A stretch of 13,120 nucleotides of DNA, taken from an uncultured Ruminococcus sp. (GTDB taxonomy: Bacteria > Bacillota > Clostridia > Oscillospirales > Acutalibacteraceae). Location of the stretch: assembly GCA_902773155.1 (NCBI GenBank), contig CACYDK010000216.1:1-13120 (forward strand), in the 5' to 3' direction. Each line of letters opens with the position of its first letter. Within the stretch, counting starts at the first letter, position 1. Below, one piece after another: positions 1,543-11,015 of this stretch. Position numbers and translations under genes: made by a program. The notes beneath the pieces were generated by a model. It did not search any database. It saw nothing but the letters and a program-made list of their open reading frames with translations, and was not told the DNA's origin.

Positions 1543-2133
1543 TTACTGCTTATTGCCCGTGAAGCCCTGATTGTCGTAGGTTTTAATGACCTGCTTGGAT
1601 ATTTCAAGCTTGCTTGTGCGCAGGTTCATAGCCTGCTTCTCAAGGTAGCGGTGAGCCTGCTGCTCGGTCATCGAAAGACACTGAATGAGCAGAAGCTTCG
1701 CGCGGTTGATGATGTTTATCTCCTCAAGACGGGTTTTAAGCTTTATGTTTTCCTGTTCTGTCGCGAGCATTCGCTCCTTGAAGGCGCGGGTAAATATGAG
1801 GTAATGGTGAAAGAGGTGGCGGTTGAGCGGCTTTGAGATCACGAGCACTCCGTGGCTGTCGACCATACCGAAAACCTCGGAGGCTTTTTCCTGCTTTACA
1901 ACAAGTATCACGCTTGCCTTGGTTTTTTCGGCGCAGTAAACCGAAAGCTCGAGCCCGTTCTCATCCGAAAGGGGAGAGTTTATCACAATCAGGTCAAACC
2001 GGGTTTCGGCGAGCTTTTCTTTAGCTTCGGCGGAGGTCGAAGCGGATTCTATCGCTACGTAGCCTTCATCCCCGAGCAAGCTCGAGATTATCCTCAGCCC
2101 TGATTCGTTTTTCGAGATAATTAATGCGTTCAT
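1543..2133 (-). CDS. ANTAR-domain response regulator (RNA-binding antiterminator) with degenerate receiver
   Basis: From the ATG at 2133 the protein has 196 residues. Residues 1-~115 form a CheY-like receiver fold (MNALIISKN..., FDLIVINSPLSDENGLEL, VISKPL). A coiled-coil linker follows at ~120-140, then a C-terminal ANTAR domain at ~138-192 (INRAKLLLIQCLSMTEQQAH, YLEKQAMNLRTSKLEISKQV). ANTAR proteins bind twin-hexaloop RNA and prevent transcription termination. The phosphoacceptor Asp is Asn52, and the acidic pair after strand 1 is replaced by Ser/Lys/Asn, while Lys101 is kept; the receiver therefore resembles the pseudo-receiver of AmiR. An earlier in-frame ATG at 2166 has no ribosome binding site; the chosen start has GGTGGA upstream. 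It diverges from glnN, whose leader carries an ANTAR-like hairpin overlapping a terminator, so glnN is the likely target. Similar regulators (NitR in clostridia) control glutamine synthetase. Confidence 0.9.
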   Translation of the reverse strand: MNALIISKNESGLRIISSLLGDEGYVAIESASTSAEAKEKLAETRFDLIVINSPLSDENGLELSVYCAEKTKASVILVVKQEKASEVFGMVDSHGVLVISKPLNRHLFHHYLIFTRAFKERMLATEQENIKLKTRLEEINIINRAKLLLIQCLSMTEQQAHRYLEKQAMNLRTSKLEISKQVIKTYDNQGFTGNKQ

Positions 2134-2309: not shown

Positions 2310-2338
2310 TTGACAAAATCTGCCTCCGAGTATATACT
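2310..2338 (+). promoter_or_regulatory. Sigma-A promoter of glnN
   Basis: A consensus -35 box TTGACA (2310-2315) and a TATACT -10 box (2333-2338) are separated by exactly 17 bases. Transcription should begin near 2345, giving a leader of about 70 nt before the glnN ATG at 2416. The promoter is very strong on paper, which fits control by attenuation in the leader rather than at initiation. Confidence 0.85.
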
Positions 2339-2349
2339 GTCTATGTAAA

Positions 2350-2363
2350 CAGCAAAGGCGCTG
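2350..2363 (+). promoter_or_regulatory. ANTAR-target hexaloop hairpin in the glnN leader
   Basis: The leader contains CAGC-AAAGGC-GCTG: a 4-bp stem closing a six-base loop with A at loop position 1 and G at position 4. This is the signature of ANTAR RNA-binding sites. Its 3' half (2358-2363) is also the first part of the 5' arm of the terminator stem, so the two structures cannot form together. That is the usual geometry of the P2 hairpin in ANTAR antitermination. No clear P1 hexaloop is visible upstream, and the predicted transcription start (~2345) leaves no room for one. The short stem makes this a reasoned call rather than a certain one. Confidence 0.65.
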
Positions 2364-2393
2364 CGGGTCATACCTGCGGCGCGTTTTATTTTT
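2358..2393 (+). terminator. Intrinsic terminator (attenuator) in the glnN leader
   Basis: The arms GCGCTGCGGGT (2358-2368) and ACCTGCGGCGC (2372-2382) pair over 11 bp with two G-T wobbles and a three-base loop. A T-rich tract of four T, one A and five T (2384-2393) follows. The structure lies between the promoter and the glnN ribosome binding site (AAGGAG at 2403-2408), so it should stop transcription before the gene unless it is disrupted. It overlaps the ANTAR hexaloop hairpin, making it a regulated attenuator. Confidence 0.85.
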
Positions 2394-2415
2394 CTGCATA
2401 TTAAGGAGTAATCTT

Positions 2416-4509
2416 ATGGTAAATGTTCCCGAGCTGTTCGGCAGTAATGTGTTCAACGACGACGTAATGAAGGACAGACTTCCCAAACCGGTCTATAAGG
2501 CGCTTAAGAGCACTATTCAGGAGGGCGCGACTCTCGACCCGAGCGTTGCCAACGCCGTGGCTCACGCTATGAAGGAATGGGCTATCGAAAAGGGCTGTAC
2601 TCACTACACCCACTGGTTCCAGCCTCTGACCGGGATCACGGCCGAAAAGCACGACAGCTTCATTAATCCCGACGGTGACGGAAAGGTTATTATGACCTTC
2701 AGCGGCAAAGAGCTCATAAAGGGCGAGCCCGACGCGTCGTCCTTCCCTAACGGCGGAATCCGCGCGACCTTCGAGGCAAGAGGCTATACCGCGTGGGATC
2801 CCACCTCATACGCCTTTGCCAAGGACGGAACTCTCTATATTCCTACAGCCTTCTGCTCATATACCGGCGAGGTTCTCGACAAAAAGACTCCTCTGCTTCG
2901 CTCTATGGAGCGTATCTCGAAGGAGGCCGTCCGCATTCTTCACCTCTTCGGAAAGGACGACGTAAACCGTGTTATCACGACCGTAGGCCCCGAGCAGGAG
3001 TACTTCCTAATTGATAAGGCGATGTATGACAAGCGCCCCGACCTCAGATTTACGGGTCGCACCCTGTTCGGCGCTAAGGCTCCCAAGGGTCAGGAGCTCG
3101 ACGACCACTACTTCGGCGCTATCAAGCCCAGAGTAGCCGCGTTTATGGCCGAGCTTGACCGCGAGCTGTGGAAGTTTGGTATTTACGCAAAAACCGAGCA
3201 CAATGAGGTTGCCCCCTCTCAGCACGAGATCGCCCCGATTTTTACGACAACAAACGTAGCCGTCGACCACAACGAGCTGCTTATGGAAATCCTTAAGAAA
3301 ACTGCCGAGAAATACGACCTCGTGTGCCTACTGCACGAAAAGCCCTTCGCCGGAGTCAACGGCTCGGGTAAGCACAACAACTGGTCGCTCTCCACAAACA
3401 CCGGCGAGAATCTCTTAAAGCCCGGAAAGAAGCCGGCCGAGAACACCCAGTTCCTTCTTTTCCTCGCCGCTATAGTAAAGGGCGTTGACGAGTATCAGGA
3501 TCTGCTGCGCATTTCCGTGGCTTCCGCCGGAAACGATCACCGTTTAGGCGCCAACGAAGCTCCTCCCGCTATTCTCTCCGTATTCCTCGGAGACGATCTG
3601 GGCGGCGTTGTCGATTCGATAATTGCCGGCGAGGAGTACGAGGGCGAAGGCAAGAAGAACATGGATCTCGGAGTTGAGGTTCTTCCGACAGTCCGCCGCG
3701 ATACAACCGACCGCAACCGCACCTCGCCGTTTGCGTTTACCGGCAACCGCTTTGAGTTCAGAAGCCTCGGTTCGGCCGAGAATATCGCAAGCCCCAACAT
3801 TGTGCTCAACACTGTTGTAGCCGAGGAGCTTAAGCAGTTCGCCGACAAGCTCGAGGGCGCCGAGGATTTCGACAAGGCGGTAAAGAAGCTTATCGCGAAA
3901 ACCTTCCGCGCTCACCACAGAATTATATTCAACGGCGACAACTATTCTCAGGAATGGGTGGAGGAGGCCGAGCGACGCGGACTTCTCAATCTAAAGAGCG
4001 TTCCCGACGCCGTAGCTCATTATATCGACGAAAAGAACATCCGCCTCTTTACAGAGAACGAGGTGTTCACCAAGGAAGAGCTTATGGCGCGTTATGAGGT
4101 CGACCTCGAGAATTACGCAAAGCTCATCAATATAGAAGCTCTTACTATGATAGATATGGCTAAAAAGGATATTATCCCGGCTGTAACCTCCTATGTAAGA
4201 GACCTCACAGAAACGGCTCTCGCAAAAAAATCTCTCAGCGCGGATATCCCTGTATCTCTCGAAGCCAAGCTTGTGAGCTCCTTGAGCCAGAAGCTGGTCT
4301 GCTTCGACGAGAAGGTTGACGAGCTCGAGAACGACCTTATTAAGGCCGGCGAGTATTCGGACGATATTCAGGCTTACGCCGATTTCTACTGCGACAGCGT
4401 GTTCGCCGATATGCAGGCCTTAAGAGCTATCGGCGACGAGATCGAAACCGAGACCGGCGCGAGCTACTGGCCCTATCCGACCTACGGCGAGCTTCTTTTC
4501 GGGGTATGA
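2416..4509 (+). CDS. glnN: Glutamine synthetase type III
   Basis: At 697 residues this matches the long GSIII class (about 700-730) rather than GSI (~450). It makes glutamine from glutamate, ammonia and ATP in the cytoplasm. The GSIII-specific N-terminus is present ([26 protein letters not shown] at 60-73). Catalytic-core motifs follow: PEQEYFLID (192-200), [13 protein letters not shown] (262-274), [11 protein letters not shown] (314-324), NEAPPAI (380-386) and [18 protein letters not shown] (432-449), then the helical GSIII C-terminal domain to 697. The ATG is preceded by AAGGAG. Its leader has a near-consensus promoter and a terminator overlapping an ANTAR hairpin, and a divergent ANTAR regulator lies immediately upstream, so it is probably controlled by antitermination according to nitrogen state. 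It is monocistronic, ending at a strong terminator. Confidence 0.97.
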
Positions 4510-4520
4510 TACAAAACAAT

Positions 4521-4562
4521 ACGGCAGACAGGCTGATGAACTCAGCTTGTCTGCCGTTTTTC
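4521..4562 (+). terminator. Intrinsic terminator after glnN, probably bidirectional
   Basis: A 16-bp stem with one G-T wobble (4521-4536 with 4542-4557) and a five-base loop is followed by a run of T. On the opposite strand the hairpin is followed by TATTGTTTTG, so it may also end the convergent membrane-protein gene that stops at 4586. Confidence 0.9.
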
Positions 4563-9164: not shown

Positions 9165-11015
9165 ATGAAGAAGTTTATTTCCGTTATGCTCGCGGTGCTG
9201 GTGATAGGCTCAGCGCTTCCGTTCGCGGTTTACGCGGCTGACGAAAATTCCGCCGATCCCGCGGAAAAATCTGTAGTGTCAGAAATTTCTGAGACCACGG
9301 CTCCAACCGAGACTACAGAGTCCACCGAAGCTACGGAGTTTACAGAATCCACCGAGGCTACGGACTCCACAGAGCCCGAAACAACCGAACCCACAGAGAG
9401 CGTCACGGATCCTGTAACCGAGCCGTCCACAGCTCCCGATACGGAGCCCACTACAGCTCCCGATACAGAACCCGTAACAGAACCCTCGAAGCTTGCCAAC
9501 GTTAAAAACCTCACTCTCAAGGCAACCGAGAACAAGGCGGTAATAAAATGGACAAAGAGCGCGACGGCCACGGGCTACGTGCTCCAGAGGGCCATCGAAT
9601 ATGATAACGGTAAAATGAGCGCCTTCAAGAACTACAAAACCCTGCAGGCCACATCCTTTACCGATACGGGTCTCACCCCGGGCAAGCTGTACAAGTACAA
9701 GGTTTTTGCCTGCCGTGTAAACGGAAGCACCGCTACTTACAGCAGCGGCGTTGTAGGCTCTGTAATAACCAACCCTGCCGCTCCGAAAACCGTAAAGGTT
9801 GACGGTAAGGACACCAATATGCTTGTAATAAAATGGAGTAAGGTGTCGGGCGCAACAAAGTACATAATCTACCGTTCTGTCGAGAAGGCCGACGGAAAGT
9901 TTACCAAGTACACGATCTATAAGACAGTAAAGGCTAAAAAGACCGGCCTTAAGGATACCAAGCTTGTTCCCGGTAAGGTCTACCGCTATCGCGTCAGACC
10001 AGTTCGCGTAAAAGGAAAGCTCACCGCTACCGGAAAAACAAACGGTATCAGAACTATCACAATGCTCAGCGCTCCTAAAAAATTCGTTGTAAAAAGCGCC
10101 AAGTCGACCTCGATCACGCTTGCGTGGAGCAAGGTTACGAGAGCCGATAAGTATGAGCTCTACCGCAAGACCGAGGGCAGCGATTACAAAAAGCTCACAA
10201 CTACGACCGATCGCGTTTATACCGACACAGGCGTAATGAGCGGCGGCACAGAGTATAAGTACCTCGTTCGCGGTATCCGCGTTATCAACGACAAAAAGCA
10301 CGTAGGCAAGGATATCACAATTATCGCCGCTACGGCTGTCGGAAGCGTCGGAGGTATTACGGCTCGCTCTTATCTCAGCAGAGCGGTGCTGACCTGGAAG
10401 GACGTAAGCGGAGCCGACGGATACGACGTTTTCGTATACAAGGCAAACGGCAAATGGAAGTATAAGGATACGGTTTACCACGGAGCCTATCTCTCAGGAA
10501 AGCTCGACACAGGCCGCACCTATGTCTACTCCGTAAAAGCCTTTACAAAGTCCGGCGGCAATAAAGTTTATTCCAACTCAAAGACAGTCAACGTCACTCC
10601 GACAAACACCGCCTTCGGCTCGGCCGCTCCTACGGGAACATGGGTCGAAATTTGTACCGAGACTCAGATGATGTTCATGTACGTAAACAACAAGATGTAT
10701 GTAAAGACCCCTGTCGTTACAGGTATGTACAACAGTCAGGACACCACTCCCGGATACCACACCGTAATCAGCCGCGGCTCGCCCACACGTCTTGCGGGCT
10801 CCGCCGGCGGACATTCCTGGGACGTTGCGGTTCAGTACTGGATGGGCTTTACAGGCGACGGTCAGGGAATTCACGACAGCTCGTGGAGAACCTCCGGCTA
10901 CGGCGGAACGATCTATATGGGCGACGGCTCCAACGGTTGTGTAAACACTCCCTACGACGCTGTTGCTAAGATGTATCCCAAGAGCTACATCGGAATGCCC
11001 GTAATAGTATTCTAA
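9165..11015 (+). CDS. Secreted protein with four Fn3-like repeats and C-terminal L,D-transpeptidase (YkuD) domain
   Basis: The 616-residue protein starts at an ATG with AGGAAGG upstream. Residues 1-24 are a clear signal peptide (MKKFISVMLA... PFAVYA). Residues ~45-108 are a Thr/Glu/Pro/Ser linker. Four fibronectin-III-like repeats follow at about 111-207, 208-300, 302-395 and 398-487, each with a VIKW/LAWSK/LTWKD strand and a GxxYKYKV-like strand. Residues ~499-616 resemble YkuD L,D-transpeptidases, which cross-link peptidoglycan or attach proteins to it. His570 lies in GQGIHDSSW and the nucleophile is Cys592 in GSNGCVN. The usual SHGC(V/I)N is SNGCVN here, so the His before Gly-Cys is Asn590. 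No LPXTG anchor is seen. It should act outside the membrane at the cell wall. It is transcribed alone, ending at a strong terminator. Confidence 0.88.
   Translation: MKKFISVMLAVLVIGSALPFAVYAADENSADPAEKSVVSEISETTAPTETTESTEATEFTESTEATDSTEPETTEPTESVTDPVTEPSTAPDTEPTTAPDTEPVTEPSKLANVKNLTLKATENKAVIKWTKSATATGYVLQRAIEYDNGKMSAFKNYKTLQATSFTDTGLTPGKLYKYKVFACRVNGSTATYSSGVVGSVITNPAAPKTVKVDGKDTNMLVIKWSKVSGATKYIIYRSVEKADGKFTKYTIYKTVKAKKTGLKDTKLVPGKVYRYRVRPVRVKGKLTATGKTNGIRTITMLSAPKKFVVKSAKSTSITLAWSKVTRADKYELYRKTEGSDYKKLTTTTDRVYTDTGVMSGGTEYKYLVRGIRVINDKKHVGKDITIIAATAVGSVGGITARSYLSRAVLTWKDVSGADGYDVFVYKANGKWKYKDTVYHGAYLSGKLDTGRTYVYSVKAFTKSGGNKVYSNSKTVNVTPTNTAFGSAAPTGTWVEICTETQMMFMYVNNKMYVKTPVVTGMYNSQDTTPGYHTVISRGSPTRLAGSAGGHSWDVAVQYWMGFTGDGQGIHDSSWRTSGYGGTIYMGDGSNGCVNTPYDAVAKMYPKSYIGMPVIVF
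9289..9491 (+). repeat. Thr/Glu/Pro-rich coding repeat
   Basis: The linker of the Fn3/YkuD protein is built from short units. A (T/S)TE(A/P)T-type pattern recurs at residues ~45-80. A tandem pair of TAPDTEP units (residues 89-103) is nearly identical in DNA (CAGCTCCCGATACGGAGCCC and its copy 27 bases later). Such flexible, possibly glycosylated linkers are common in secreted Clostridia proteins and are prone to length change. Confidence 0.75.

Follow-up and report, generated by a model that had tools for sequence, protein, structure and literature searches.

A single promoter-proximal hexaloop overlapping the terminator of the glnN leader in an uncultured Ruminococcus, a predicted ANTAR attenuator

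Background

The RNA target of ANTAR proteins has been defined as a motif of two hairpins with two hexaloops (PMC3369931), and this two-hairpin model has been retold in PMC3369936 and retained as the definition in actinobacteria (PMC8164766). In E. faecalis, induction of eutP was ablated by deletion of the first hairpin, P1 (PMC3369931). The linker between the hexaloops is given as 5-12 nt in E. faecalis eut and as 2-25 nt in PMC8164766. SELEX with NasR returned a C:G closing pair and an A1/G4 loop, and NasR bound a lone P2 at about 12 uM as against 1 uM for the pair of hairpins (PMC7496416).

The description of EutV in PMC8934654 has the two ANTAR domains of the dimer both contacting one hexaloop, and redefines the binding motif as one hexaloop, yet it holds both hexaloops to be necessary for antitermination, which a longer linker between them abolished in vitro. 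The same source foresees single sites where the moving polymerase imposes no time limit, and judges contact with two transcripts unlikely. It also mentions EutX RNA, with one extra single hexaloop, and mycobacterial sites that sometimes break the two-hairpin rule, and it leaves as an open question why two hairpins are needed when the dimer grips one at a time. An open-access literature search found no paper on a one-hexaloop leader that overlaps its terminator or on the glnN leader described here, the tables of PMC3369931 aside; the supplementary tables of that paper, whose text names glutamine synthesis genes among the targets, may list this leader or its kin.

Results and Discussion

Organization of the glnN leader and comparison with known systems

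The window is the whole stretch of DNA that was analysed, 13,120 nucleotides from an uncultured Ruminococcus sp. The glnN leader and its divergent neighbour have the following features.

2310..2315, + strand: -35 box TTGACA of the glnN promoter, read in the sequence
2333..2338, + strand: -10 box TATACT of the glnN promoter, 17-nt spacer to the -35 box
2345..2346, + strand: predicted transcription start, from the -10 box (6-7 nt beyond its end)
2350..2363, + strand: ANTAR-type hexaloop hairpin CAGC-AAAGGC-GCTG, proposed antiterminator (sequence, stem covariation)
2358..2382, + strand: intrinsic terminator GCGCTGCGGGT-CAT-ACCTGCGGCGC, 11-bp stem
2384..2393, + strand: U-rich terminator tail, read in the sequence
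2403..2408, + strand: ribosome-binding site AAGGAG of glnN, read in the sequence
2416..4509, + strand: glnN, type III glutamine synthetase (GSIII), 697 aa, ATG at 2416 (Pfam GSIII_N, 272.8 bits)
1543..2133, - strand: divergent REC-ANTAR protein, predicted regulator (Pfam ANTAR 51.8 bits, Response_reg 40.5 bits)

The promoter (2310-2338) agrees with the consensus at 11 of 12 positions and ranks in the top two of the window's 25 promoter-like sites. The hairpin is made of CAGC (2350-2353), the loop AAAGGC (2354-2359, with A1 at 2354 and G4 at 2357) and GCTG (2360-2363), and six of its bases (2358-2363) belong also to the terminator. The first-pass annotation had described this promoter, the hairpin and an 11-bp terminator with a six-base overlap, all of which are exact to the base in the sequence, and its divergent ANTAR gene adjoining glnN is borne out by Pfam, which identifies 1543-2133 as REC-ANTAR and 2416-4509 as type III glutamine synthetase. 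It had further claimed that no space is left for P1. With the predicted start at about 2345, about five bases of RNA lie ahead of the hairpin, and a scan of 2134-2349 for A1/G4 hexaloops with at least 3 pairs found none, in agreement with that claim. The rest of the window leader has no further A1/G4 hexaloop with at least 4 pairs, the hairpin at 2350-2363 being the only one. The minimum-energy fold of the leader, terminator included, has -24.1 kcal/mol and the hairpin alone -3.7 kcal/mol. An Rfam search returned no family at 2310-2415 and four weak matches (E up to 5) elsewhere in the window.

Two other genes of the window may be recorded here. On the same strand as the ANTAR gene and 51 bp after it lies carA (406-1491, - strand), encoding the small chain of carbamoyl-phosphate synthase, a glutamine-using enzyme; carA and the regulator gene may be co-transcribed. 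At 9165-11015 (+ strand) there is a 616-aa open frame with threonine- and glutamate-rich repeats near its N-terminus.

Among the closest described systems is EutV of E. faecalis, acting at the eutP, eutG, eutS and eutA leaders, where the distal arm of an A1/G4 hexaloop hairpin likewise overlaps the 5' side of the terminator and the regulator is a REC-ANTAR protein of the same fold. The eut leaders differ in having P1 and P2 at a constrained distance, with P1 needed in vivo, whereas here one hexaloop lies at the predicted 5' end, and EutV is phosphorylated on Asp54, where the window protein has Asn52. NasR at nasF of Klebsiella oxytoca shares the closing C:G and the A1/G4 hexaloop, as in SELEX, but binds two hairpins at about 1 uM and a lone P2 at about 12 uM (PMC7496416), and it carries a NIT domain in place of REC. 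AmiR at amiE of Pseudomonas aeruginosa is an ANTAR protein with a pseudo-receiver (PMC8934654), and in the alignment it has, as does the window protein, a His at the loop-stacking position; however, the amiE leader has two hairpins (PMC3369931, PMC3369936), the partner of AmiR is AmiC, and the pathway is amide catabolism. One protein-stabilised hairpin overlapping a terminator is also the arrangement of the RAT sites of LicT, SacY and BglG, although these proteins belong to another family and their RNA site is larger, at 29-30 nt (PMC3369931). Compared with the target of Ramesh et al. 2012, the window leader has the A1/G4 loop and lacks the two consecutive hexaloops, and its gene-side hairpin overlaps and would exclude the terminator, as judged from sequence and covariation alone. 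Of the single-hexaloop motif of Walshe et al. 2022, a hairpin whose G4 points outward, the hairpin and the G4 letter are present and conserved in sequence.

Conservation among glnN leaders

With the window ANTAR protein, 33 related loci were fetched, 16 of which have a GSIII gene in the fetched stretch; these 16, the family locus L003 and the window form a close set of 18 leaders. The promoter, with TTGAC[AT] as its -35 box and a spacer of 17 nt, is present in all 18, together with a [CA][AG]GC-AANGG[CT]-GCTG hairpin and the T-run; there are two deviants, L048, whose stem has 3 bp, and L050, whose hairpin stands 59 nt behind the -10 box. In L050 the -10 box is separated from the conserved hexaloop by about 48 extra bases, among which an inverted repeat was seen by eye, and this leader is a natural test of the importance of promoter distance.

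A broader set of leaders was chosen by GSIII and not by the motif: at least 165 of 200 sampled family genomes have a GSIII match, and the best 110 family GSIII places by score were read, window included, a choice that favours nearer GSIII genes. When the test was anchored on a C-AANG[GA]N-G hairpin behind a strong promoter, it was passed by 78 of 127 glnN leaders (three with a stem of less than 4 pairs) and by 62 of the 110 in the family sample; 18 of the 76 ANTAR genomes whose leaders were read had no anchored motif at glnN. Without any constraint on the loop letters, a search at 5-16 nt behind a strong promoter gave 78 hairpins with six-base loops, spread over 76 of the 127 leaders, and because 74 of these 78 have both A1 and G4, the hairpin is more than a product of chance.

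A strict filter was passed by 63 of the 127 leaders, including 16 of the 18 close ones. In these strict leaders the gap from the -10 box to the hairpin is 6-14 nt (mode 11), the predicted RNA before the hairpin is about 1-9 nt, and the closing pair is C-G in 63 of 63, the letters of the pair having been no criterion of selection. The second GSIII gene of the window's own genome (L068) has the same leader design.

The one-hairpin layout is thus not restricted to the window locus, being found in related glnN leaders and elsewhere in the class. The first-pass annotation had offered a one-hairpin variant as one reading of the leader, and had named an upstream P1, or a failure of the loop and terminator overlap to be conserved in relatives, as what would speak against it. 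The conservation proved strong, no strict leader has an upstream A1/G4 hexaloop, and related glnN leaders, like others across the class, keep the A1/G4 loop and its overlap with the terminator and likewise lack P1.

Search for P1 or a second hexaloop

No A1/G4 hexaloop was found upstream of the hairpin in the 63 strict leaders, nor in a stretch of the same leaders that begins 80 nt upstream of the -35 box and ends at the start (0/63, expected 0.08). The same result was obtained for hexaloops with at least 4 pairs within 60 nt upstream of the match at class loci (0/27) and for upstream A1/G4 hexaloops at genus loci (0/28). A canonical P1 further upstream was rejected, as it is absent in the scans of the strict, class and genus leaders and of the window. 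As a control for canonical two-hairpin leaders we scanned 30 EutP/PduV-family loci; the strict scan found none and the relaxed scan gave two implausible pairs, at a density no higher than background, so the control failed and the absence of P1 therefore rests mainly on the missing room before the hairpin. A two-motif pattern matched 25 of 245 class genomes, as matched strings only, and the reversed control matches too. Among the 127 glnN leaders, one (L139) has a linked hexaloop pair of classical spacing.

Downstream of the hairpin, a further A1/G4 hexaloop with at least 4 pairs occurs in 8 of the 63 strict leaders (expected 1.9), and seven of these eight look like tandem attenuators from their sequence. 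Other A1/G4 hexaloops with at least 3 pairs were found in 11 of 63 (expected 10.3), which is no commoner than in shuffles. In the tandem leaders (L104, L108, L128, L129, L148, L160 and L178) a promoter-proximal hexaloop and terminator are followed by further A1/G4 hexaloops; a second T-run is present, and some of the later hexaloops are long-stemmed and free-standing.

Covariation and competing folds

In all 63 strict leaders the arm shared by the two structures sits in the terminator side of the minimum-energy fold. We measured covariation on 40 aligned leaders, for which a hairpin stem of at least 4 pairs was required of each row, so that the complete pairing of the four inner positions follows from row selection, whereas neither the double changes nor the terminator counts depend on it; the terminator stem played no part in the choice of rows. 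The hairpin has 25 double-change cells as against 7.8 in shuffles, and the terminator 101 as against 34.7. In the terminator, 10 of 12 modelled pairs are altered on both sides in relatives, although the numbers of pairs so altered are unremarkable in themselves when set against shuffles (hairpin 4 versus 3.1, terminator 10 versus 8.1). When the partner strand is shifted, pairing falls from about 90% to 56% or less for both hairpin and terminator. Variants of the hairpin stem include CAGC/GCTG, CGGC/GTCG and AGGC/GTCT, and the second stem pair is G-U in 11 of the 40 leaders. This covariation indicates that both rival structures, the hairpin and the terminator, are selected.

Co-occurrence of the leader motif with ANTAR genes

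To follow the motif across genomes we used a covariance model (R1) of the -10 box, the hairpin sequence and the terminator, trained on 40 leaders, and the presence of ANTAR was called by the Pfam cut-off. At E<=1e-6, a cut that was set after the tables were seen, R1 matched 76 of the 115 family genomes with ANTAR and 3 of the 85 without, where 34 of the training leaders come from family genomes later searched, chosen regardless of ANTAR, and match by construction, and where genome G083 was counted as ANTAR-absent though a truncated relative sits at a contig end. At this cut a match is missing from 39 of the 115 family ANTAR genomes. At the search's own cut of 0.001 the counts are 97 of 115 with ANTAR and 27 of 85 without. 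For 16 genera with both kinds of genome, the motif is present solely in the ANTAR member in 10, the reverse in 0, both in 1 and neither in 5; kinship is allowed for solely through this comparison, which leaves out the family genome G156.

The sample of 100 genomes from the window's own genus gave R1 matches at 1e-6 in 75 of 76 genomes with ANTAR and in 7 of 24 without; at 0.01 the counts are 76 of 76 and 20 of 24, weak matches being counted by score alone. Strong matches in ANTAR-free genomes are those of G006 (96% complete), G072 (84%) and G147 (75%) in the family and of G474, G482, G511, G514, G522, G527 and G531 (72-92% complete) in the genus. Two same-genus ANTAR-free genomes listed as 100% complete (G074 and G185) have kept the glnN promoter, and the hairpin is absent (L090 and L076). 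In the ANTAR-free family genome G110, the glnN leader (L094) appears by eye to contain a decayed copy that lacks A1 and has a disrupted stem.

The window's own genome has only two strong R1 matches, each before one of its two GSIII genes. Matches 3 to 7 (E 0.002 to 1.1) were inspected and judged to be chance. The 15-base motif with at most two mismatches occurs 27 times in this genome, as against 8 times for the reversed pattern; among the 10 of these 27 matches that were inspected for other targets, a promoter and terminator were present only at the two GSIII leaders. Binding of the ANTAR protein and antitermination at the leader are predicted from this co-occurrence and from adjacency.

The putative regulator

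The protein encoded at 1543-2133 is the only ANTAR match in its 1.54-Mb, 94% complete genome, and its 51.8 bits stand against a curated cut-off of 27.3 for the ANTAR domain (PF03861). Its predicted structure (pLDDT 88.5) has EutV (6wsh) as the top Foldseek match, followed by Rv1626 and AmiR. The acceptor Asp of the receiver is replaced by Asn52, so that the protein falls outside the phosphorylated REC-ANTAR class of the EutV type; the acceptor position is Asn in 57 and Asp in 0 of 62 aligned sequences, window included. As the receiver has no phospho-acceptor, the likely route of a nitrogen signal is by way of a partner protein or a ligand, in the manner of AmiR, and not by way of a kinase.

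The residues of the RNA face, R144, K146, H161 and M169, are found in all 63 sequences compared, that of the window among them. By positions counted from the alignment, H161 corresponds to Tyr164 of EutV, M169 to Met172 and R144 to Lys147; the roles of these EutV residues are taken from PMC8934654. The window protein departs from the majority at Asn140, a position taken by Lys or Arg in 59 of 63 sequences.

Distribution beyond glnN

At E<=1e-4, R1 matched 90 of 245 class genomes. We read 27 of the 30 best matches returned; the other three (L185, L236 and L238) were members of the family set and had been covered there. An A1/G4 hexaloop with at least 3 pairs is present in all 27 of these class loci, and a GSIII-like N-terminus was seen by eye downstream in 15. 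Pfam identified ten chosen genes from family, class and R. bromii loci as asnA (four), amtB (five) and purC (one). In the last of these (L247) a purine synthesis gene, outside the nitrogen theme, is preceded by a -10 box, a hexaloop and a terminator arranged in the same way. Among new genus loci the gap is 10-13 nt in 28 of 29, the exception being L325, which has no readable promoter-hairpin.

In Ruminococcus bromii YE282 (L051) glnN and amtB are each preceded by a one-hexaloop element. At 2784-4558 of this locus, an ACAC-AACGGC-GTGT hexaloop and a 15-bp terminator precede an ammonium transporter with a C-terminal PII domain, whose gene sits between glnN and the ANTAR gene. The design appears from these loci to be widespread in related Clostridia, at the predicted 5' ends of glnN, asnA and amtB transcripts.

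A probable one-hexaloop attenuator and its alternatives

We consider it probable that the glnN leader is a one-hexaloop ANTAR attenuator, antiterminated by the neighbouring REC-ANTAR protein when nitrogen is short. Transcription would begin about five bases ahead of the hairpin. Without the protein, the nascent RNA would form the 11-bp terminator and transcription would end before glnN. Under nitrogen shortage the REC-ANTAR protein, probably as a dimer, would catch the AAAGGC hexaloop as it emerges from the polymerase; since the 3' arm of the hairpin is part of the 5' arm of the terminator, a bound hairpin that retains this arm would block the terminator, and glnN would be read. Candidate reasons why a lone hairpin could suffice are a higher affinity, the placing of both domains of the dimer on one loop, and proximity to the promoter. 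The first-pass annotation had suggested, as its other option, that the switch may depend on a dimer contacting something else; such a contact is not required in view of the EutV-RNA structure, where both ANTAR domains are on one hexaloop (PMC8934654).

A second contact of another kind, in a standard two-contact switch, could be a hairpin outside the A1/G4 type, a hairpin on another nascent transcript nearby, or RNA polymerase. Deletion of P1 in the EutV system abolished induction in vivo (PMC3369931), and lengthening of the EutV linker abolished antitermination in vitro (PMC8934654). The distance between hairpin and promoter is moreover nearly fixed (6-14 nt; 10-13 nt in the genus), as if the start region mattered, but L050 with its hairpin at 59 nt from the -10 box indicates that the position is not absolute, and the predicted 1-9 nt before the hairpin are too short for another hairpin. 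In the strict leaders other A1/G4 hexaloops, the type to which the scan was confined, are about as frequent as expected (11/63 versus 10.3), and contact between two transcripts has been called unlikely (PMC8934654). A two-contact arrangement is therefore in our view unlikely for this leader.

Much less probable still is a DNA operator, formed by the palindrome (about +5 to +18) and bound by a repressor, with the terminator as a feature of its own. An inverted repeat right behind a strong promoter is in the classical operator position, but its loop is asymmetric and conserved (A1, A2, G4) and its stem accepts G-U (11 of 40 at one position), and an RNA element is therefore favoured over a DNA operator; in addition, both mutually exclusive RNA structures covary, and the motif tracks an RNA-binding protein family. 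We give equally little credence to an attenuator that answers to something other than the ANTAR protein, the adjoining gene being a bystander. The strong matches in genomes that lack ANTAR, three in the family and seven in the genus, would fit a bystander, although nine of these ten assemblies are at most 92% complete. The closing pair and loop match those of NasR SELEX (PMC7496416), the discordant genera stand at 10 to 0, and a GSIII gene lies in the fetched stretch of 16 of the 33 relatives that were found by the ANTAR protein, all of which speak against a bystander.

Implications for ANTAR control and nitrogen regulation in Clostridia

What is new here is the predicted ANTAR attenuator with a single hexaloop close to the promoter, which serves mostly genes of ammonium assimilation. 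The combination of one hexaloop and a terminator that overlaps it is a case that PMC8934654 leaves open, and conserved natural one-hairpin leaders, with the same protein family and the same loop and no P1, make the question of why there are two hairpins testable. More tentatively, and as a possibility that we hold to be short of even, ammonium assimilation in Clostridia (glnN, asnA and amtB) may be governed by one-hexaloop ANTAR antiterminators within about 10 bases of the 5' end, with proximity replacing P1 and with a non-phosphorylatable receiver fed by a partner. Proximity could replace P1 if the protein were to load onto the early elongation complex. If this is true, the two-hairpin rule would hold for one branch of ANTAR control, and a class-wide regulon would have escaped covariance searches based on pairs. 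The findings point to an ANTAR subgroup, and to a class-wide nitrogen regulon in Clostridia, including Ruminococcus bromii, which two-hairpin searches would be expected to miss.
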